DNA of 22,607 bases. Origin: a virus. Where the stretch lies: positions 1-22,607 of IMG/VR virus record IMGVR_UViG_3300025759_009681. One strand, 5' to 3'. Positions 13,800-22,398 of this stretch are shown here, piece after piece (the stretch's first letter is position 1; each line of letters opens with the position of its first letter). A model generated the notes under the pieces. It was not told the origin of the DNA and searched no databases. It saw only the letters and a program-made list of their open reading frames with translations. The position numbers and the translations under genes are program-made.

Positions 13800-13900
13800 T
13801 CATTTTTACTAATCGACCCGTTCTCAACAAGGGGGGCGGGTTCGCAACAAGGGCGGCCAATAAAAGGACATAGGGAACCTGCTGGTACGTGGGAAACATC

Positions 13901-13961
13901 TGTTACTGTAATACTAAGGGGGTATCCACCAAAAGTCAACTATCCTGTAGTACAGGCCCCC
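13901..13961 (+). promoter_or_regulatory. Extended -10 and nested hairpin before terL
   Basis: TG-T-TACTGT (13901-13909) is an extended -10 with an expected start near 13916. GGGGG (13918-13922) can pair with CCCCC (13957-13961), and CCTGT-AGT-ACAGG (13944-13956) forms a short hairpin inside. Eight A residues follow, so it is not a terminator on the plus strand. Confidence 0.4.
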
Positions 13962-13996
13962 AAAAAAAATACGCACCCAATACTTTCTACTGTGAT

Positions 13997-15250
13997 ATGG
14001 CTGTACGTACACCACCCGCACTATCGCTACGGCACGCGCAGGGTGAAGTTTTCAACAGCGATGCGCGTTTTCGCGTACTGGTAGCAGGCCGCCGCTTCGG
14101 GAAGTCGTACCTAGCCTGCATCGAACTATTGCGTGGAGCGATTGCCGCACCCGGCGAGACCTTCTTTTATTGCGCCCCGACTTACCGCATGGCAAAAGAC
14201 ATTGCCTGGAAAGTTATGAAACGTATTGTTCCCCCGGCGTGGATCAAATCCAAGAACGAAACGGACCTCAAGCTGGAACTTGTCAACGGTTCCACGATTG
14301 AGTTAAAGGGCACCGAAAACGCAATGGCGCTACGAGGCCGCAGTTTATCGGGCGTAGTCCTCGACGAAGCCGCATTTATGGACGCCGCCGTCTGGTTCGA
14401 GGTAATCCGCCCCGCACTAGCCGACAAACAGGGCTGGGCCTTATTTATTTCCACCCCCGATGGAACGGCCAGCTGGTTTTACGAGCTATGGCAGTACTGC
14501 ATCACAGGCGACGCCAACTGGAAACGGTGGAGCTTCACTACGATTGAAGGCGGCAACGTTCCACCGGAGGAAATCGAAGCTGCACGAGGCCAACTCGACC
14601 CCCGAACTTTCCGCCAAGAGTTCGAGGCCAGCTTTGAAAACCTATCCGGCCTCGTTGCCGTCTCATTTAGCGACGCCAACATCAGCACCACCGCAAAGGA
14701 CATCCCAATCCTCCCATTACTACTGGGCGTGGACTTCAACGTGGACCCAATGACAGGAATCTGCGCCGTCACGGACAACGACACCCTCTACGTTTTCGAC
14801 GAAATCCACCTAACCGGCGGCGCCACCACCTGGGATTTCACAGAAGAAGTAATCCGCCGCTTCGGCCTGGAACGTCGCATCATGGCCTGCCCGGACCCAA
14901 CAGGCGGCGCCCGCAAAACGCAAGGTGTAGGCGCAACAGACCACAACATTTTACGAAAATCGGGATTCCGCGTCTGCGCACCCCGCAGCCCATGGAAAGT
15001 ACGCGACAAAATCACCGCCGTCAACACCGCGCTTTTAGATGCCACTGGAACGCGCCGCTGCTTCATCCACCCGCGCTGCAAGGAACTAATCAAATCCTTC
15101 CGCAGCCTGACCTATGCCCCTGGAACGGGCCTACCGAACAAAAATCTTGGCGTAGACCATGCTTTTGACGCTTTCGGTTACTTATGCCTACAACAATTCA
15201 ACCTGGCAAAAGCAGGCGTAATGGGCAAAACTTCATATAGGTTGTACTGA
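13997..15250 (+). CDS. terL: Terminase large subunit
   Basis: The 417-residue packaging motor has Walker A VAGRRFGKS near residue 30, Walker B SGVVLDEAA and the coupling motif LFISTPDGT. The C-terminal RNase H-like nuclease has LGVDFNVDP, MACPDPTGG and DHAFDAFGYL supplying the acidic metal ligands. It drives ATP-dependent packaging and cuts concatemeric DNA. The ATG at 13997 gives MAVRTPPALSL; a longer frame from 13889 would pass through the leader hairpin and adds a non-conserved stretch, so it is rejected. No Shine-Dalgarno is seen. The gene is preceded by the hairpin-rich leader. Confidence 0.95.
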   Translation: MAVRTPPALSLRHAQGEVFNSDARFRVLVAGRRFGKSYLACIELLRGAIAAPGETFFYCAPTYRMAKDIAWKVMKRIVPPAWIKSKNETDLKLELVNGSTIELKGTENAMALRGRSLSGVVLDEAAFMDAAVWFEVIRPALADKQGWALFISTPDGTASWFYELWQYCITGDANWKRWSFTTIEGGNVPPEEIEAARGQLDPRTFRQEFEASFENLSGLVAVSFSDANISTTAKDIPILPLLLGVDFNVDPMTGICAVTDNDTLYVFDEIHLTGGATTWDFTEEVIRRFGLERRIMACPDPTGGARKTQGVGATDHNILRKSGFRVCAPRSPWKVRDKITAVNTALLDATGTRRCFIHPRCKELIKSFRSLTYAPGTGLPNKNLGVDHAFDAFGYLCLQQFNLAKAGVMGKTSYRLY

Positions 15251-15263
15251 GCTACACAAACCA

Positions 15264-15758
15264 ATGGTTAATTACGAAGGCCCAAAAAAGCGAACCCGTG
15301 GTGATAAACGCGCCCAAGAATACATCGAGGCACGACAACGCCGCATGTACCGGCACCAACTTGACGGCCACAGCGTGCGCCAAATCGTATATGAACATTC
15401 TGCCCGCGAAGGAATAAGCATCCCCACTGCCTGGCGCGACTGGGACCAAGTAAAAAGCTGGACCGAAGAGGACTGGATCCGCGACCGCGAAGCAATGCTG
15501 GGCCGCATCCAAACAATGCGTCTCCGCGTCGTCCACGCCGCCATGAAAAAAGGCCACTACCAAGTCGCCGCGCAAGTTTTGGATTCCCTGGGACGTGTTC
15601 TGGGCGAAAACACCCCCGAACAAGTCTCGGTCCAAGTTCCATCACTAAATATCCAAGTCGAACCAAAAGTAGTCACCGCGCAACTACCGCAAAGCGACGT
15701 AATCGAAGCCGAAATAACACCACAAAAAGAGGTAGATTCAGCTGAACCCAGCGAGTAA
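15264..15758 (+). CDS. HTH protein after terL, candidate small terminase
   Basis: The 164-residue protein starts MVNYEGPKKRTRGDKRAQEY. A putative HTH lies at about residues 35-60 (SVRQIVYEHSAREGISIPTA), then a helical part (AMLGRIQTMRLRVVHAAMKK, then VAAQVLDSLGRVLGE) and a disordered acidic tail. N-terminal HTH plus a helical oligomerisation segment is the layout of small terminase subunits, but they usually precede terL. It starts 13 bases after terL. The gene at 11213-11581 has a similar layout, so which one, if either, serves is open. Confidence 0.55.
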   Translation: MVNYEGPKKRTRGDKRAQEYIEARQRRMYRHQLDGHSVRQIVYEHSAREGISIPTAWRDWDQVKSWTEEDWIRDREAMLGRIQTMRLRVVHAAMKKGHYQVAAQVLDSLGRVLGENTPEQVSVQVPSLNIQVEPKVVTAQLPQSDVIEAEITPQKEVDSAEPSE

Positions 15759-15762
15759 ATCA

Positions 15763-15828
15763 ATGCCCGGACACTACGGCCAAGGCAAAAAGAAGAAGCC
15801 CAAAGGAAAGAAAGGCCCCAAGAAGTAG
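15763..15828 (+). CDS. Tiny Lys-rich protein, 21 residues
   Basis: The ATG four bases past the previous stop gives MPGHYGQGKKKKPKGKKGPK plus K. A short Gly-Tyr head and a poly-Lys tail are typical of very small phage proteins found near packaging and head genes. Such peptides are thought to bind DNA or the capsid interior, but no function is known here. Short length makes it uncertain. Confidence 0.45.
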   Translation: MPGHYGQGKKKKPKGKKGPKK

Positions 15829-15853
15829 AATATGAACAGCTGTCGCGATTTCC

Positions 15854-16021
15854 ATGGCAAAACGCGGTCTTTACGCCAATATCCACGCCAAGCGTAAGCG
15901 CATCAAGGGTGGCGCGGACGAAAAAATGCGCAAACCAGGCTCAAAGGGCGCCCCAACCGCTGACGCATTCAAAAAAGCGGCCAAAACAGCCAAAAAACGT
16001 AAACCAAAGGGACAAAAATAG
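15854..16021 (+). CDS. Small basic protein (DUF6321-like)
   Basis: The 55-residue product starts MAKRGLYANIHAKRKRIKGG and continues ADEKMRKPGSKGAPTADAFK. The (K)RGLYxNIHAKRxRIKxG...EKMRKPGxKGAPT pattern is common in phages and, as far as I recall, assigned to DUF6321. It is strongly basic and probably nucleic-acid-binding. Its stop TAG shares its G with the GTG start of the next gene. Confidence 0.65.
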   Translation: MAKRGLYANIHAKRKRIKGGADEKMRKPGSKGAPTADAFKKAAKTAKKRKPKGQK

Positions 16022-16200
16022 TGGGCACCCGAATCGTCAGCGGTTTCTGCACACACCTCGAAGTGGACTCCGAAAGCCGCACCACGGAAGCCTCATTTGC
16101 CTTCATGACACCCCAAGACCCCGAGGATTTTGCGGGTCTGATGGTACGTCTTGCCAGCGGCATCGAAGTAATGATCGAAGTCGAGGACGATGAGAACTAG
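16021..16200 (+). CDS. Small acidic protein, 59 residues, GTG start
   Basis: Starting at the GTG that overlaps the previous TAG by one base, the protein reads MGTRIVSGFCTHLEVDSESR, then TTEASFAFMTPQDPEDFAGL and IEVMIEVEDDEN. It is acidic and beta-rich, with no recognised family. The one-base stop/start overlap with the very basic previous protein suggests a coupled acidic/basic pair. Confidence 0.5.
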   Translation: MGTRIVSGFCTHLEVDSESRTTEASFAFMTPQDPEDFAGLMVRLASGIEVMIEVEDDEN

Positions 16201-16216
16201 TTAAAAGAAAACTAGC

Positions 16217-16222
16217 TATACT
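16217..16222 (+). promoter_or_regulatory. Possible -10 before the fibre gene pair
   Basis: TATACT lies 31 bases before the ATG at 16254, flanked by CTAG repeats (16212-16215 and 16227-16230). No clear -35 is present. Confidence 0.3.
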
Positions 16223-16253
16223 ATCACTAGATTGCTCTACTGCGGCTTAAGCG

Positions 16254-16496
16254 ATGTCTACGACCGCACGCACACAAAGCGGTTTAATAAGAAACCCTGA
16301 CGGCACATATTCAGCCTCAGTTGTCCAAGGTTTAGAAGTACCCGGCCACGATTACATCGAATTTAGCCCTGCAGCTACCCCAGCTACCGGAAGTCAAGAC
16401 GTAATCTTTAAACTCGGTGGTGCCACTGGAACGACGGTAGCAACTTTAACGTTGACTTATTCCAGTGGAAACCTTTCCAGCGTTGCTAAGGTCTAG
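16254..16496 (+). CDS. Small phage structural-type protein
   Basis: The 80-residue protein begins MSTTARTQSGLIRNPDGTYS and has HDYIEFSPAA and then FKLGGATGTTVATLTLTYSS. The DYIxxxxxxxx...(Y/F)K.GGATGTTVATLTLxY...NLxSV pattern is frequent in small phage proteins encoded just before tail or head fibre genes. It should be a beta-rich virion or connector protein. The stop is two bases before the ATG of the DGR target, so the two are surely cotranscribed. Confidence 0.55.
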   Translation: MSTTARTQSGLIRNPDGTYSASVVQGLEVPGHDYIEFSPAATPATGSQDVIFKLGGATGTTVATLTLTYSSGNLSSVAKV

Positions 16497-16498
16497 TC

Positions 16499-18118
16499 AT
16501 GAGCTATAAGTTCAACCCATTTACCGGCAACCTCGACGAAGTAGGAGCAGGCGGCGCTGCCACTCCTGGCGGTGCGGACACGCAGGTTCAATTTAATGAC
16601 GGCGGAGCCCTAGGTGGTGACGCCGGTCTTACCTACGACAAAACGACAGACAAGCTCACTGTCGGCGGTGACCTTGAACTAGAGAATGGCGGAACATTCA
16701 CTACCACTGGCCCTATTGGCGTAGGCGGTGCTAACTATGGAGCAGCAGGTCAAGTACTTGTCTCCAATGGATCCAGTGCAGCCCCAACCTGGGAGCAAAT
16801 TACTCCATCCGCAGTCTTTGGCTGGGACCACGACGATGATACTTATGGGCTTTATCTGCCAGGTACCAGCATCAAAGTCAGCGACCTTACGGGCGCGGTA
16901 GACATTGACGTTCAATCGCGAATGCGTCGTTGTGTCATTAACGATGCTGGGGTTGTTCAGTATTACCTAGACGCTGATGACAGCGACATGAAAGCAGGCG
17001 ATTGGCTTCGCATTATAGAAACTGAAGCACTTGATACTGCTTATACTGGCACAATTAGTGAAAGCACAAATAGTTCACTTCGTGTCGGTGTACCGGCATG
17101 GGCTGCTGGTACGTTCACCGTGGGGCAGCGTGTTACGAATGGCGGGTACTTGTGGGAATGCCTTGCAGCCACTTCAACTGCTACACCTGCCGCTGGTGCA
17201 GTAGCAAGTGACCTTACAGGTACTGATGGTCAAGTGGTTGTTGAGGTGCCTGCATTCAGCGTGCGTTACGGCTTCTTAAATGGTGTTCACACCCGTGAAG
17301 TCAAATTGGGTTGTAACGATGGTCTTATTGCCCAAGGTTTCCGGCCACATCCTGCATTTATCAAGACAGACGGTACTTACAAAAGTGCGTTCTATTTTGG
17401 GGCTTATCACACCTATGACGATGCTGGCACTGGATCTAGCGTAAGCGGTCAAACAAATACCCGCAGCCAAACCCGCAACACCTTCCGCACCGAAGCCGCA
17501 GCTCGTGGCACTGGATGGCATGTATTGTCTTACTTAGAGCTGGCTGCTATTCAAACACTGCTTGTTTGCGAGTTTCAGGATTACAACTCACAAAAAGTGA
17601 TTGGGAATGGCTCTGACGCTGGCACAACTTATGGAGTGACAACAGGTCAAAGTGATGGTGATGGCAATCACAGCGTCAACAGCACTGATAACGGTTCCAA
17701 CGCTGATGATTACATGTCATATCGCGGCATTGAAAATCTTTATGGTCGCGCGTGGCAATTCGTTGACGGCATAAACGTTTATGAGCGAGTGGTCTATTTG
17801 ACTAATGATCAAACAGCTTTTGCAGACAACACTGCTGATGGTTATGACTTTTACGCTCAAGTTCCAACTGGATCAGCGTCATACCAGAAAGAGCTACATC
17901 CGTTAGCAGATGTATTTTTACCGTCTGTTGTGACGGGAGCAAGCAGCACGACGTACCTGGGAGATGCTTTCTGGAGCTCTACCGGGTGGCGTGTGGCCTA
18001 TGTGGGGGGCGATTCCGGCAATGGTGCGCTGGTTGGGGCCTTCTGCTTGTGGCTGGCCGATGCTTCGGGCGTTTCCGGCGCGTACTTCGGGTCTCGCCTG
18101 GCGTATGCTGAAAATTAA
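16499..18118 (+). CDS. Fibre-like protein with C-type-lectin domain, DGR target
   Basis: The 539-residue protein starts MSYKFNPFTGNLDEVGAGG and has QVQFNDGGALGGDAGLTYDK, the usual start of phage fibre proteins. From about residue 270 it carries a formylglycine-enzyme/C-type-lectin-like fold (FIKTDGTYKSAFYFGAY, GTGWHVLSYLELAAIQTLL, MSYRGIENLYGRAWQF, GDAFWSSTGWRVAYVGG). The VR encodes roughly residues 495-533, GWRVAYVGGDSGNG to YFGSRL, followed by AYAEN. The changing residues lie where lectin-fold targets display their binding surface. Adenine-directed mutagenesis would alter about 15-20 residues here. Binding to a host receptor is the expected role. Confidence 0.85.
   Translation: MSYKFNPFTGNLDEVGAGGAATPGGADTQVQFNDGGALGGDAGLTYDKTTDKLTVGGDLELENGGTFTTTGPIGVGGANYGAAGQVLVSNGSSAAPTWEQITPSAVFGWDHDDDTYGLYLPGTSIKVSDLTGAVDIDVQSRMRRCVINDAGVVQYYLDADDSDMKAGDWLRIIETEALDTAYTGTISESTNSSLRVGVPAWAAGTFTVGQRVTNGGYLWECLAATSTATPAAGAVASDLTGTDGQVVVEVPAFSVRYGFLNGVHTREVKLGCNDGLIAQGFRPHPAFIKTDGTYKSAFYFGAYHTYDDAGTGSSVSGQTNTRSQTRNTFRTEAAARGTGWHVLSYLELAAIQTLLVCEFQDYNSQKVIGNGSDAGTTYGVTTGQSDGDGNHSVNSTDNGSNADDYMSYRGIENLYGRAWQFVDGINVYERVVYLTNDQTAFADNTADGYDFYAQVPTGSASYQKELHPLADVFLPSVVTGASSTTYLGDAFWSSTGWRVAYVGGDSGNGALVGAFCLWLADASGVSGAYFGSRLAYAEN
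17982..18098 (+). repeat. DGR variable repeat (VR)
   Basis: 117 bases in the 3' end of the fibre gene, matching the TR at 18178-18294 without gaps. There are 93 identities and 24 mismatches; 23 mismatches are at TR adenines (14 to G, 7 to T, 2 to C) and one is T to G. The first 17 bases and the last 12 are identical. The shared 3' end (TCGGGTCTCGCC) is where the IMH-like element for homing is expected. Confidence 0.97.
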
Positions 18119-18136
18119 GAAAAGCTATACTTATAC

Positions 18137-18158
18137 GGTGATGCCAAATTACATCACC
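18137..18158 (+). repeat. Hairpin downstream of VR
   Basis: GGTGATG (18137-18143) and CATCACC (18152-18158) form a perfect 7-bp stem with an 8-base loop, 39 bases after VR and 20 before TR. Some DGRs have a hairpin or cruciform just after VR that aids homing; an 8-base loop is longer than the usual 4. It could also be a weak transcript end. Alternative pairing GCCAA/TTGGC exists. Confidence 0.5.
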
Positions 18159-18177
18159 TTGGCTTGGCTCTGTTTTT

Positions 18178-18294
18178 CCGGGTGGCGTGTGGCCAATGTG
18201 GGAGGCAATTCCAACAATGGTACGCAGGATGGAGCCTTCTACTTGAATCTGAACAATGATTCGGGCAATTCCAACACGAACATCGGGTCTCGCC
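18178..18294 (+). repeat. DGR template repeat (TR)
   Basis: 117 bases located between the fibre gene and the RT gene. It contains 29 adenines, mostly as AAY codons in the VR frame (aat, aac), so adenine changes can yield many residues. In frame it would read GWRVANVGGNSNNG, then QDGAFYLNLNNDSGN and INIGSRR-like residues. Only six adenines are unchanged in VR. Confidence 0.97.
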
Positions 18295-18297
18295 GTT

Positions 18298-18406
18298 GCC
18301 CCCAGGTTTTTAGTAAACCATACAGAGCAAGCCACACCTCTTGGTGAAACAACTGCACCGCATAAAGCATTAGTAGGTACGCCGAATATGCTGCGACGCT
18401 GGGGGC
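18298..18406 (+). ncRNA. TR-RT spacer RNA closed by an 8-bp helix
   Basis: GCCCCCAG (18298-18305) and CTGGGGGC (18399-18406) are perfect complements enclosing 93 bases. In the Bordetella DGR the spacer after TR primes cDNA synthesis and must fold; this spacer (about 118 bases from TR to the RT ATG) is a comparable length. The right arm lies six bases before the RT ATG. Confidence 0.5.
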
Positions 18407-18412
18407 TTAAAA

Positions 18413-19495
18413 ATGAAACGTTATGGTAATTTATATCATCAAATTTACGACATAGAAAACCTTCGGGTTGCTTACGAAAATGCAAAGCGTGGCAAGACCA
18501 GAACTCAACAAGTTATAAAAGTAGACGAAAATCCTAATTGTTATTTGCTTAAAATACAGCAACTGTTAGAAGATGAAGCATTTGTGAATGGCAAATACAC
18601 CACTTTCGAGCTGGTAGAGCGCGGCAAACATCGCGTTATCCATGCCTTACCATTTTTCCCTGACAGAATTATTCACCATGCAATCGTTCAAATTATTGGT
18701 CCAATATGGATAAAAGCGTTTATCCGCGATAGTTATTCCTCGATACCAGGCAGGGGCATACATGATGGCGTTAGACGCATCAAACATATAATGCCGAACT
18801 GCAAGGGATGGTATGCGTTGAAATGTGACATCAAAAAATTTTACCCATCGATAGATCATGACGCACTTAAAACAGCTGTCCGCGCAAAGATAAAAGACCC
18901 AAGCCTGCTAAAGATTCTGGATACAATCATTGATTCCGAAGAAGGCGTACCAATTGGTAATTACTTAAGCCAATATTTTGGTAACGTAATATTTAACTCA
19001 TTTGATCACTGGATAAAGGAGGATCAAGGCGTTAAGTATTATTTTAGATATTGCGATGACTTTGTCATTCTTGCCCCAAGCAAAGAAAGACTTCATTTGC
19101 TAAAGAAAGAAATAGAAAGCTACTTAAAGCAGCTCAAATTAACACTAAAAGAAAACTGGCAAATATTCCCTATTGATTCTAGAGGCGTTGATTTTATGGG
19201 TTATCGTTTTTGGTGTGATAAAACTTTGGTTCGCAAAGCAACCATTCAGCGATTTAAGGAAAGATTGAAGGTCAAGCGTATGACGTTGAATGAAGCAATT
19301 CGACTGCGGCATGTCATTGGATCTTTTCGCGGCTGGCTTCGGTACGCTGATACGTCTAAACTGATAAAAGAAAGCGTATTGCCAGCCAAATCCCGTGTCA
19401 AAGCCTACCTTCGTAAATTACGGCAGCGATTATCCCAGACCTCGCTTCGTCAAGAATCAGTGGCTTGTTCCGTATGCCGTTACCCCAAGCACTGA
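18413..19495 (+). CDS. DGR reverse transcriptase
   Basis: The 360-residue enzyme carries the RT palm motifs. They are RGKHRVIHALPFFPDRIIHH, SYSSIPGRGIHDGVRRI, KCDIKKFYPSIDH (first catalytic Asp), EGVPIGNYLSQYFGN, YYFRYCDDFVIL (Y-C-D-D) and GVDFMGYRFW. The IGNxLSQ form of motif 4, instead of the QG..LSP of group II introns, marks a DGR enzyme. All catalytic Asp residues are present. It copies the TR RNA with adenine errors; the cDNA replaces VR. The gene looks AT-richer than its neighbours. The last 34 or so codons overlap the next gene in another frame, so the C-terminus may be an extension. Confidence 0.96.
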   Translation: MKRYGNLYHQIYDIENLRVAYENAKRGKTRTQQVIKVDENPNCYLLKIQQLLEDEAFVNGKYTTFELVERGKHRVIHALPFFPDRIIHHAIVQIIGPIWIKAFIRDSYSSIPGRGIHDGVRRIKHIMPNCKGWYALKCDIKKFYPSIDHDALKTAVRAKIKDPSLLKILDTIIDSEEGVPIGNYLSQYFGNVIFNSFDHWIKEDQGVKYYFRYCDDFVILAPSKERLHLLKKEIESYLKQLKLTLKENWQIFPIDSRGVDFMGYRFWCDKTLVRKATIQRFKERLKVKRMTLNEAIRLRHVIGSFRGWLRYADTSKLIKESVLPAKSRVKAYLRKLRQRLSQTSLRQESVACSVCRYPKH

Positions 19496-19763
19496 TGAGG
19501 ATGGCGTAATCAGCTACGAAGCAAGCGAAGTTGCAAGCAAGACGCTATTTGCACACGATCTTGATGCCGTGGTTCCAGCAGGTAATGATGCTGACGTGAT
19601 TGAAGCCGTTAAACACGGGATCAGATTGCAACGAGCAGCGGAATACCCACCGATTCAGGATTTTCTAGACGGGACCGCCAAAGACGATCAAGACCAAATC
19701 GATGAATACAAGGCTGCCTGTCTTGCAGTAAAGGCAAAGTACCCGTTCCCCGAGGAGCAGTAG
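19395..19763 (+). CDS. Tail/fibre assembly chaperone-like protein
   Basis: A GTG at 19395 gives MSKPTFVNYGSDYPRPRFVK, then WLVPYAVTPSTDEDG. The C-terminal part reads AAEYPPIQDFLDGTAKDDQD, then QIDEYKAACLAVKAKYPFPE. The YPP(I)xDxLDGxxKxDxxQxxxYxxxCLAVKxKYP pattern is common in small phage proteins encoded after fibre genes, often labelled XkdW-like or assembly chaperones. The first third lies inside the end of the RT gene in a different frame. The N-terminal residues look protein-like, so the overlap is likely real. Confidence 0.65.
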   Translation: MSKPTFVNYGSDYPRPRFVKNQWLVPYAVTPSTDEDGVISYEASEVASKTLFAHDLDAVVPAGNDADVIEAVKHGIRLQRAAEYPPIQDFLDGTAKDDQDQIDEYKAACLAVKAKYPFPEEQ

Positions 19764-19764
19764 T

Positions 19765-19941
19765 ATCAAAAGCGCACTCCAAGTCTCACTAGACACTAAT
19801 GGTGCTACTGGCATCGCACTTGGCATCGGCGGCGGCACTAACGCTCACACCTCCACATGGTCAGCGGCTGCTAATGCAGCTTGGCTTAGTCTTGACGCCA
19901 AGGGCTGGAACATCACACATAATGGACCTGATCCTACCTAA
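19765..19941 (+). CDS. Small reading frame without a standard start codon
   Basis: A 58-codon frame begins at an ATC (19765). It reads IKSALQVSLDTNGATGIALG, then GGGTNAHTSTWSAAANAAWL and SLDAKGWNITHNGPDPT. The repeated A...L.AKGW.I..NGP end resembles leucine-rich tail-protein repeats in phages. AGGAG lies seven bases before the ATC, the ideal distance for a ribosome site. No ATG, GTG or TTG is in frame before it back to a stop at 19729. It could be a rare AUC start, a decayed gene or the end of a frame-shifted product. Confidence 0.45.
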   Translation: MKSALQVSLDTNGATGIALGIGGGTNAHTSTWSAAANAAWLSLDAKGWNITHNGPDPT

Positions 19942-19961
19942 TCGTAAGAAGCGGTGACTAA

Positions 19962-21440
19962 ATGACATACGCAGTCCCTGGTAACATTCGCACCCACCTT
20001 GTAAGTTCCAACACCCTCGGTGGAGCTGACAGTCCGTTCACCCGCACGCAAGCGGTGCTGGACATGATGAAGGGCTGGGAAATCATGAAGGCCGTCACCC
20101 TTGGGACGGAATACCTCCGCGAGAACAGCGAGGCGTTCCTGCCAATTGAACCACGCGAGGACTACACGGCGTATTTAGCGCGTGTAAACCGGGCCGTATT
20201 TTCCCCATTTACGCAACGCCTGGTGCGTGCTGCTGCAGGACTAATTCTGCGCAAACCGATCAGTTTAGTCGGCGACCCATACTGGACGGATATTTTTGCA
20301 AAGGACGTTGATGGTTGCGGCTCAGATTTAGACGAATACGCCCGCCGCCTGCTGCTGTGCTCATTAACCTACGGGCATTGTCATACACTAGTAGATTTTC
20401 CAGCTCCAACGGGTGCCCGCAGCCTTGCGGAAGAGCGCGAGCTTAACCGCCGCCCTTATTGGATCGAAATCGACCCAGACAACATCTACGGCTGGCGCCT
20501 GGACCGTGAAGTCAACTACGGCAATTTAGTACAGGTCCGCATCAAGGAAAAAGCAGTAGTCCCTGACGGCGAATTTGGCGAAAAAGTATACGACCAGATC
20601 CGTGTAATCGAGCCCGGCCAATACCGCATCTACCGCCAGGTCGAAACCAAAAAGGACATGCAGGGAGGCTTCCCATATCCAAACGCCTTCGACGCAACAG
20701 ATGCCACCTCGGACTACGAGTTAGTGGAATCAGGCGACTACAGTTTGGGCCAAATCCCGCTGGTCACAACATATTCCGGCAAAGTAGACACCCTTACAAG
20801 TAAGCCGCCCTTACTTGACATTGCATATTTAAACCTGGCCCATTTCCAGCGCCAAGCCGACCTAATCCACAGTCTGCATATCGCAAGCCAGCCAATTCTT
20901 GTCCTCGAAGGCTGGGACGACCAATCCAAAGACGTAGCCACCAGCGTCAATTACGCCATGGCAACCCAACCTGGCAACACAGTTTATTACGTAGAACCAG
21001 CTGCAAACGCATTTGAAGCACAGTCCAACGAAATCCGCGAACTACAAATGCAGATGGCCACGCTTGGCATCAGCACGTTAAGCCAACAAAAGTTTGTTGC
21101 CGAGTCTGCCGACGCCCGCCGCCTGGACCGTGTTGACACAAATTCAATGCTGTCGATGGTATCTCTTGACCTAGAACAAGCCTTACAAAAAGCGTTCAAT
21201 TTAGCCGCCGACTATGTAGGAATCGCACCACCCGAAGTAAAGATCAGCCGCGATTTCGACATCGACCGTTTAATCGGCCAAGACGTAACCGCGCTGACGG
21301 CATTGTTCGAGCAAGGTGTCCTGGCGCGTGACGAGTTCCGTCAAATCCTTGTCCAAGGCGAAATTCTTCCCACCGCTAGTGAGCAACAGCAGGCTGGTAC
21401 TGAAACTGAGGACAGTGAGTCCGACCCAACTGAGGAATAA
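19962..21440 (+). CDS. Portal protein (DUF4055 family)
   Basis: The 492-residue protein starts MTYAVPGNIRTHLVSSNTLG and carries FSPFTQRLVRAAAGLILRKP, then GDPYWTDIFAKDVDGCGSDL and DEYARRLLLCSLTYGHCHTL with VDFPAP. The GDPYW(T)...DGxGxxLDE(Y/F)ARR(L/V)L...YGxxxxLVDFP pattern is the DUF4055 signature, a portal-like family of tailed phages. The portal ring is the DNA entry channel at one head vertex, where TerL docks. The C-terminal part is acidic and disordered (AGTETEDSESDPTEE). The gene is followed by the scaffold and capsid genes. Confidence 0.85.
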   Translation: MTYAVPGNIRTHLVSSNTLGGADSPFTRTQAVLDMMKGWEIMKAVTLGTEYLRENSEAFLPIEPREDYTAYLARVNRAVFSPFTQRLVRAAAGLILRKPISLVGDPYWTDIFAKDVDGCGSDLDEYARRLLLCSLTYGHCHTLVDFPAPTGARSLAEERELNRRPYWIEIDPDNIYGWRLDREVNYGNLVQVRIKEKAVVPDGEFGEKVYDQIRVIEPGQYRIYRQVETKKDMQGGFPYPNAFDATDATSDYELVESGDYSLGQIPLVTTYSGKVDTLTSKPPLLDIAYLNLAHFQRQADLIHSLHIASQPILVLEGWDDQSKDVATSVNYAMATQPGNTVYYVEPAANAFEAQSNEIRELQMQMATLGISTLSQQKFVAESADARRLDRVDTNSMLSMVSLDLEQALQKAFNLAADYVGIAPPEVKISRDFDIDRLIGQDVTALTALFEQGVLARDEFRQILVQGEILPTASEQQQAGTETEDSESDPTEE

Positions 21441-21505
21441 ACGCCAAGACATAAGTTCTTACAAACTACACAAGTAGACTAAACAAGTACATGGAGTATG
21501 CCTAC

Positions 21506-21670
21506 ATGGGCAAGTCACTAGAAAAAGTGCTTAAACCTGATGGTTCTGAAGTATGGGAACTCGTGGAACTACGCGAACCCCAACCAGAACCTGAGGTATG
21601 CAAACCTGTGCGTAAGCGCAAGCCCTCAAAGCCTGCGGAAGAAACCCCTACCTCTACTTTTGAATTCTGA
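21506..21670 (+). CDS. Small hypothetical protein, 54 residues
   Basis: From the ATG at 21506 the product reads MGKSLEKVLKPDGSEVWELV, then ELREPQPEPEVCKPVRKRKP and ends in TFEF. A GGAG nine bases upstream favours this ATG over the one at 21491. A Pro/Glu-rich then Lys/Arg-rich tail suggests disorder. It sits between portal and scaffold genes, two bases before the latter's ATG. No family is recognised. Confidence 0.55.
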   Translation: MGKSLEKVLKPDGSEVWELVELREPQPEPEVCKPVRKRKPSKPAEETPTSTFEF

Positions 21671-21672
21671 CT

Positions 21673-22398
21673 ATGGAAGAGCACGTCATCCAGGAAACGC
21701 CCGTGGCGAGTCCTGCCCAGCCCGTGGCTGCAGCCGACACCGCTCCACAGCAACCAGACCCTGCACTTGCTGTAAAAGCCGAATACGAGACCCAGCTTGC
21801 CGCCTTAAAACAGCAAGCAACTGAAGCCGAGGAACGTTTCCAAGGCATCAAATCCAAGCTGGATGAGGTCTACAAAAAGCAGGACGACCAGCGCAAACAA
21901 ACGCTGGAAGACCAAGGCCAATGGAAAGACCTTTGGGAGGAAGCTAATAAAAGCGCCCAAGAAAAGGACAGCCAAATCAGCGCACTGGAGCGTCAGCTGG
22001 CGGACCTAAGGGTTTCCAACGAAGAGGCGACCATGCGCACAAAAGCGTTGTCCGCAATCAGCCAAGCCGGTGCCATCAATGCCGAGCAGATGCTGCTGCT
22101 GGTACAAAACAACCTGCACAAAAAGGACAACGGCGACGTTGTAATTTTGGACAAAGGTGTCGAGCAAGATATTACTAACTACCTAGGCAATTTAAAGAAT
22201 CCCGGTTCAGGTTTTGAGCACCACTTTAAACCCAGCAGCGCCGCTGGTATGGGAGCCAAGCCCACACCAAACTCAGTTATTGCCCCTGGAATGCCTAATC
22301 CATTCAAGGCCGGTAGTATTAACATAACGAGACAAATGCAACTAAAAGCAGAGGAGCCTGAACTTGCAGCTGTGCTGGAAAGGGAAGCTTCTTTGTAG
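21673..22398 (+). CDS. Phage head scaffold-like protein
   Basis: The 241-residue protein has a Pro/Ala-rich start (MEEHVIQETPVASPAQPVAA), a long charged coiled coil at about residues 35-120 (EYETQLAALKQQATEAEERF, then WKDLWEEANKSAQEKDSQI and ALERQLADLRVSNEEATMRT), and a C-terminal Gly/Pro-rich region (SAAGMGAKPTPNS, then MPNPFKAGSINITRQ). Such layout, directly before the major capsid gene, is typical of phage scaffold proteins (GPO/P22-type) that guide head assembly and are then removed. Confidence 0.75.
   Translation: MEEHVIQETPVASPAQPVAAADTAPQQPDPALAVKAEYETQLAALKQQATEAEERFQGIKSKLDEVYKKQDDQRKQTLEDQGQWKDLWEEANKSAQEKDSQISALERQLADLRVSNEEATMRTKALSAISQAGAINAEQMLLLVQNNLHKKDNGDVVILDKGVEQDITNYLGNLKNPGSGFEHHFKPSSAAGMGAKPTPNSVIAPGMPNPFKAGSINITRQMQLKAEEPELAAVLEREASL

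Follow-up and report, generated by a model that had tools for sequence, protein, structure and literature searches.

A likely Avd-less diversity-generating retroelement at the tail fibre gene of a probable cyanophage

Organisation of the locus

Gut phages and BPP-1 are familiar carriers of diversity-generating retroelements (DGRs). Here we analyse a viral stretch of 22,607 nucleotides (IMG/VR record IMGVR_UViG_3300025759_009681, positions 1 to 22,607; the whole stretch is called the window), in which a tail fibre gene, a variable repeat (VR), a template repeat (TR) and a reverse transcriptase (RT) gene follow one another. We consider it very likely that this element is a genuine DGR of the Avd-less type, with the order fibre-VR-TR-RT. 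Its core features are as follows.

16499-18118, plus strand: tail fibre of 539 aa, the target gene (phrog_5302 tail protein, 4.9e-83)
17982-18098, plus strand: VR, at the 3′ end of the fibre open reading frame (ORF) 16499-18118
18178-18294, plus strand: TR, between the fibre stop codon and the RT ORF 18413-19495
18295-18412, plus strand: predicted structured spacer RNA between TR and RT, with a divergent RT-17 (RF03020) at 18330-18412
18413-19495, plus strand: DGR reverse transcriptase of 360 aa, with IGNYLSQ and YCDD (RVT_1, 1.4e-19; phrog_1423, 1.6e-117; 8ub7, 1e-45)

The VR and TR align over 117 nt without gaps at 79.5% identity, and 23 of their 24 mismatches fall at TR adenines (hypergeometric P=7.6e-18). 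Every coordinate and count given for this pair by an initial annotation, made from the letters of the window, was reproduced. The substitutions comprise 14 A>G, seven A>T and two A>C, with 6 of the 29 TR adenines unchanged. When both strands of the whole window were scanned for the TR with adenine changes tolerated, only the VR rose above background, scoring 83 versus 13 for the runner-up, and no second VR was found. The TR had been described as a non-coding copy; it does lie outside the fibre gene, but an ORF without any family match (17964-18347) spans it.

Three smaller candidate signals flank the repeats.

18087-18098 (TR copy 18283-18294), plus strand: 3′ block TCGGGTCTCGCC, common to VR and TR; candidate initiation of mutagenic homing (IMH) site, from the alignment and position only
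18126-18131, plus strand: TATACT, a possible, weak -10 element for the TR transcript (TATAAT in contigs L009 and L010)
18137-18158, plus strand: inverted repeat GGTGATG-N8-CATCACC between VR and TR, kept in relatives and in the phage S-EIV1

The VR and TR diverge directly after the block TCGGGTCTCGCC, which may mark the site of homing. The inverted repeat is a candidate counterpart of the stem-loop after the VR in BPP-1; its inner pairs show no covariation among relatives, and for this reason we conclude nothing further from it.

The reverse transcriptase

DGR RTs carry [IVL]GxxxSQ in place of the QGxxxSP of group II RTs. The window RT has IGNYLSQ at this position, and QGxxxSP occurs in all four group II RTs compared. 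Its best solved relative by sequence search is 8ub7, which we take to be the BPP-1 DGR RT, at 1e-45 versus 8e-22 for the best group II RT. Together with the motif table and the RVT_1 and phrog_1423 matches, this bears out the identification of the gene as an RT with IGNYLSQ and YCDD. A maximum-likelihood tree of 45 RTs separates the four group II RTs with 100/100 support and places the window RT among phage DGR RTs in a well-supported group; the BPP-1 RT sits on a long branch, its exact place on the DGR side being unsure. Grouping with group II introns, which the initial annotation had named as evidence against a DGR, was thus looked for, and the window RT was found on the other side of the tree.

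The RVT_1 and PADLOC RT profiles cover many classes of RT, and would also suit a group II intron RT, or one from some other system, standing beside a coincidental duplication. That reading is barely conceivable: the motif, the best solved relative and the tree all side with DGR RTs, and the adenine bias recurs in relatives. At the gathering threshold, Rfam gave no match in the window, group II intron included.

Variation among relatives

We aligned the VR-TR regions of relatives, defined as viral contigs carrying a close RT (contigs are given L or G numbers throughout), and compared nine VRs. Absence of adenine-specific VR variation among related genomes had likewise been named as evidence against a DGR; we found that 28 of 30 TR-adenine columns vary, versus 8 of 87 other columns. 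With L010 and L014 set aside, 7 of the 117 TR columns vary among relatives. Within each VR/TR pair, nearly all differences fall at TR adenines, with 0-2 other mismatches; L010 exceeds this number because its TR is altered. This is the pattern that repeated adenine mutagenesis from a fixed template would leave.

The L010 TR (L010:2948-3064, with its VR partner 197 upstream) is changed at many adenines and otherwise only at group-specific sites, and the L014 TR is changed at two adenines. Either mutated cDNA homed into these TRs or VR reads were assembled into them.

The target fibre

Residues 237-539 of the fibre form a domain that ends in the VR, modelled with a predicted local distance difference test score (pLDDT) of 85.8. 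Searched against the PDB, the model matches TaqVP, a Thermus DGR variable protein (1.5e-13), Mtd variants of BPP-1 (2.8e-4) and also formylglycine-generating enzymes (FGE). Because a Pfam search of the fibre found no C-type-lectin domain, the claim that the VR lies in such a domain required the structure model, which supports a C-terminal domain with the C-type-lectin fold of DGR variable proteins. The earlier assignment therefore stands on the modelled fold and not on a Pfam family. The fibre and the DGR are located between the terminase and portal genes (window 13889-21440), an unusual site for a fibre.

A structured RNA between TR and RT

The spacer between TR and RT is predicted to fold, with the following helices.

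18298-18305 with 18399-18406, plus strand: closing helix, paired in all cyanophage-group sequences
18335-18338/18343-18346, plus strand: hairpin with loop UCUU, from the consensus fold
18366-18370 with 18388-18392, plus strand: second helix, from the consensus fold

The spacers of relatives have in common the hairpin, its loop of UCUU type, an A-rich linker and the second helix around YURGUA...GAA. Across 29 sequences, 8 of 10 pairs have changed on both sides, giving a covariation score of 0.539 versus 0.224 when shuffled; slid partners give at most 0.146. No shuffle out of 500 reached 0.539, a count that is not a probability because the 29 sequences are related and were picked for having the motif. 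Within the cyanophage group, the closing helix has changes on both sides at two pairs, with a score of 0.226 versus 0.130 shuffled. RNAalifold, unaided, returned essentially the same helices.

The window spacer matches RT-17 (RF03020) with 32.4 bits and an E-value of 2.6e-4, below the gathering score of 40.4, and we therefore call it RT-17-like and not a member of the family. This signal surfaced only through the comparison of relatives and an Rfam search in E-value mode. Relatives L019, L021, L015, L041, L070 and L075 pass the gathering score, and L007 (37.9) and L013 (37.2) fall below it. We had considered the motif as an undescribed RNA and rejected this on the Rfam result.

Our own model, R1, scored 62.6 bits at 18330-18395 of the window, whose sequence is in its training set. 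It matches just 5′ of the RT in nearly all loci of the window's RT group, the training-set matches being so by construction. In BPP-1, group II loci and RT-less fibre loci, R1 had no match except in S-EIV1, and in one outgroup DGR it matched at chance level.

An adenine-biased TR precedes the RT-17-like RNA in 54 of 68 loci, with 8-53 nt between its end and the RNA; most of the remaining 14 are loci where the scan picked up different repeats or the contig was not long enough. Second units of TR and RT-17-like RNA occur at L076:8362-8568, L035:3696-3879 and L030:3109-3298, each with its own VR and with no RT downstream. The mismatches of these VRs fall at TR adenines in 14 of 14 cases (L076), 11 of 11 (L035) and 13 of 14 (L030), L035 and L030 being related. 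Such units suggest that one RT serves several templates.

In most loci the RT-17-like RNA lies directly before the RT start codon, where a leader regulating the RT message, with no part in the template RNA, might be expected. We regard such a leader as unlikely, since the second RNA copies of L076, L035 and L030 each come after another adenine-biased TR, with no RT downstream. Furthermore, the BPP-1 spacer at the same place belongs to a different family (Rfam RF03022, Bacteriophage DGR RNA) and has been reported to fold, recruit bRT-Avd and prime cDNA synthesis (PMC12875486). Read most simply, these comparisons suggest that RT-17 serves Avd-less DGRs as the template-RNA module, a counterpart of the BPP-1 spacer. 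That the RT-17-like RNA stands in for Avd is a guess. A literature search on DGR spacer RNA structure returned nothing on this lineage.

A separate sub-threshold match to the twister-P1 ribozyme was seen at L041:10773-10827 (42.1 bits; gathering score 67.2).

A cassette common to different phage types

The window sigma factor is closest to those of the Synechococcus phages S-CBS1 and S-CBS3, with KBS-S-2A near; the TerL and DNA polymerase comparisons were uninformative on host. The N-terminus of the fibre also occurs in cyanophage KBS-S-2A, and the whole fibre in S-EIV1. The host is probably cyanobacterial, of Synechococcus type. Together with the S-RIP1 and KBS-S-2A types of the contigs described below, these likenesses agree with the initial description of the genome as cyanophage-like.

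Two further features belong to this region.

19395-19763, plus strand: small gene overlapping the RT 3′ end (phrog_9114, 1.6e-6, and phrog_2687, both of unknown function)
16695-19782, plus strand: putative exchangeable cassette of fibre C-terminus, VR, TR, spacer RNA, RT and small gene, from DNA identity to G001 and G002

Contig G001 is 98.0% identical in DNA to window 16695-19782 over 3088 nt, and G002 is 97.5% identical to window 16738-19408 over 2671 nt. The compared parts of both contigs otherwise matched the window DNA only through VR/TR cross-matches and, in G002, a 343-nt continuation. At the protein level, G001 has distant relatives of the window TerL, portal and sigma factor; its lambda-J-type tail protein is 69% identical to that of KBS-S-2A, a siphovirus type. 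G002 carries podovirus genes, its internal virion protein being closest to that of S-RIP1. Conversely, L117, L120, L121 and L123 have TerL proteins 94-95% identical to the window's and little or no fibre likeness beyond about residue 70. No RT was found in the compared stretches of these four contigs, three of which end soon after.

Fibre residues 1-70 are thus common with the phage backbone, and residues from about 71 to 539 are part of what is exchanged. From the sharing with G001 and G002 and the backbones of L117 type, it follows that the exchanged unit would comprise the fibre C-terminus, VR, TR, spacer, RT and small gene. By these sequence comparisons, the cassette is common to different cyanophage types, siphovirus-like and podovirus-like. 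A fibre-plus-mutator unit common to different morphotypes would mean that host-range evolvability is itself exchanged.

The small gene always closes the cassette, is conserved after the fibre or the RT in relatives, and is probably fibre-associated. Its start overlaps the RT 3′ end (window 19395-19495), and the overlapped stretch is doubled in L006:5525-5957 and L048:328-841; at L014:6996-7090 the RT/small-gene junction differs from the window's. The differing junctions look as if RT insertion had been repaired in different ways.

Loss of the RT in related phages

Contig L100 has the window's backbone (TerL 100%, fibre 96%) without TR and RT. Exactly at the site of the window's TR and RT, it has a gene for an HNH_3 and AP2 endonuclease (L100:4407-4949). 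L103 lacks the equivalent of window 18147-19319 and keeps a C-terminal remnant of the RT; L107 and L108 have a similar remnant, and L106 and L111 have none. The cultured Synechococcus phage S-EIV1 (L096, KJ410740.1 ~21216-21760) has kept VR, TR and spacer, with only residues ~1-27 and 309-357 of the RT, and its complete genome has no other RT. Its record annotates only hypothetical proteins here. The S-EIV1 locus is, to judge from what remains of it, a fossil DGR with the RT core deleted. Such loss has precedents, since 66 of 91 genomes of crAss-like phages carry partial DGR cassettes (PMC7290462).

Compared indirectly, with the TR of a relative, the VRs of L100, L103 and L107 have 6, 15 and 22 non-adenine differences, respectively, versus 0-2 in RT-bearing pairs. 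We read this as drift of a VR that would no longer be rewritten. The natural series from intact cassette through RT replaced by an endonuclease and RT deleted to the S-EIV1 fossil makes the effect of mutator loss on a receptor-binding tip traceable.

These losses bear on whether the window DGR, recently active, has fallen silent, leaving its VR pattern as a relic. Relatives with fibres 95-98% identical (L100 and L103) have lost TR and RT, and cultured S-EIV1 retains its repeats and spacer beside a truncated RT. The window RT, however, has an uninterrupted reading frame and intact motifs and is 96-100% conserved in relatives, and VR and TR have a single non-adenine mismatch. Silence is therefore improbable, and we favour a DGR that is probably active in this phage.

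Every contig except S-EIV1 is a metagenome assembly, VR and TR are 80% identical repeats, and the adenine changes in the L010 and L014 TRs could be VR reads. Assembly chimeras might in this way account for the occurrence of the cassette in more than one phage type, for the losses or for the changed TRs. Against this, the window's region is unchanged in two further contigs (L002 and L003), the borders of the cassette are well removed from the repeats and do not quite coincide between G001 and G002, and L100, L103 and S-EIV1 show three different kinds of loss, the last in a cultured phage with a complete genome. We judge chimeras to be a very unlikely source of these patterns, and retain a shared cassette with repeated losses as the preferred account.

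Interpretation and mechanism

Avd is needed by the BPP-1 DGR. Using PF22296, we found no Avd in the window, in 11 close contigs or in 29 further related contigs, all of which are fragments, so that absence from whole genomes is not proven; the same search found the Avd of BPP-1 (2.2e-37). PF05635 had been tried as a probe and was dropped for PF22296 after failing the BPP-1 control.

The missing Avd counts against the DGR interpretation, as do some further observations. The lone non-adenine VR/TR mismatch is a T>G at TR 18248, and a promoter scan found no consensus sigma-70 promoter ahead of the TR. Moreover, L111 and S-EIV1 have no whole RT, yet show just 1-2 non-adenine differences (L111: 1), which limits the drift argument to older losses. 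On the other side, Avd is lacking in about a quarter of DGRs, and Avd-less DGRs with the order target-VR-TR-RT are already known (PMC7290462). The initial claim of a complete DGR thus holds for the TR/VR pair, the RT, the adenine bias and the modelled lectin fold, and completeness holds only for the Avd-less type. The kind of DGR is a known one, and the phage group is one for which we found no earlier report: among 15 papers that name both DGRs and cyanophages, none, judged by title and abstract opening, has a DGR in a cyanophage as its subject.

We propose that the TR is transcribed together with the structured, RT-17-like 3′ spacer RNA, possibly from a start set by TATACT. The RT would bind the spacer RNA and copy the TR with errors opposite adenines, priming perhaps taking place in the spacer near the closing helix, beside the TR 3′ end. 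The mutated cDNA would then replace the VR at the fibre gene end, the TR staying unchanged; integration may be guided by the common 3′ block and perhaps by the inverted repeat. Such retrohoming would alter surface residues of a receptor-binding domain with the C-type-lectin fold, and hence could switch receptor specificity.

More broadly, and with slightly more confidence than doubt, we suggest that RT-17-like RNAs are the 3′ template-RNA module of a large Avd-less DGR lineage, marking the TR for the RT, acting in trans on several TR/VR pairs and perhaps taking over part of the role that Avd and the spacer have in BPP-1. The same suggestion holds that a cyanophage receptor-binding cassette of fibre end, TR, RNA and RT moves as a unit between podoviruses and siphoviruses, with lineages later fixing their VR by RT loss. 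Three results give the locus its main interest: different cyanophage types share one cassette, a series of losses takes in S-EIV1, and RT-17 is linked with DGR templates. RT-17 is a family known by its position before RT genes, and linking it to an Avd-less template RNA makes RT recruitment and priming without Avd directly testable.

Comparison with known systems

The closest parallel in organisation is the crAssphage LMMB DGR (lineage 3, PMC7290462), which has the same order of target gene-VR-TR-RT, no avd, a tail fibre target and identical VR/TR 3′ ends, with partial cassettes in many related phages. The window RT is ~40-45% identical to RTs of crAss-like phages. Those are gut phages of Bacteroidetes, whereas the phages here are, by inference, Synechococcus cyanophages, and here the cassette is common to different phage types at 97-98% DNA identity.

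With BPP-1, the window shares adenine mutagenesis between TR and VR, a tail protein target with a lectin fold, a DGR RT and a structured RNA between TR and RT; the inverted repeat after the VR is a candidate counterpart of the BPP-1 stem-loop. BPP-1 has Avd and a different spacer RNA, whereas here Avd was not found and the spacer is RT-17-like; the gene order is mtd-avd-TR-brt in BPP-1 and fibre-TR-RT here.

RT-17 (RF03020) has the same hairpin, A-rich linker, YURGUA...GAA element and position before the RT. Unlike the family, the window copy scores below the gathering score, and the cyanophage group has an additional, covarying closing helix. The fibre locus of S-EIV1 comes nearest in sequence, with a fibre 65% identical over its whole length and VR, TR and spacer RNA in the same order, and differs in that its RT is reduced to the two terminal pieces.

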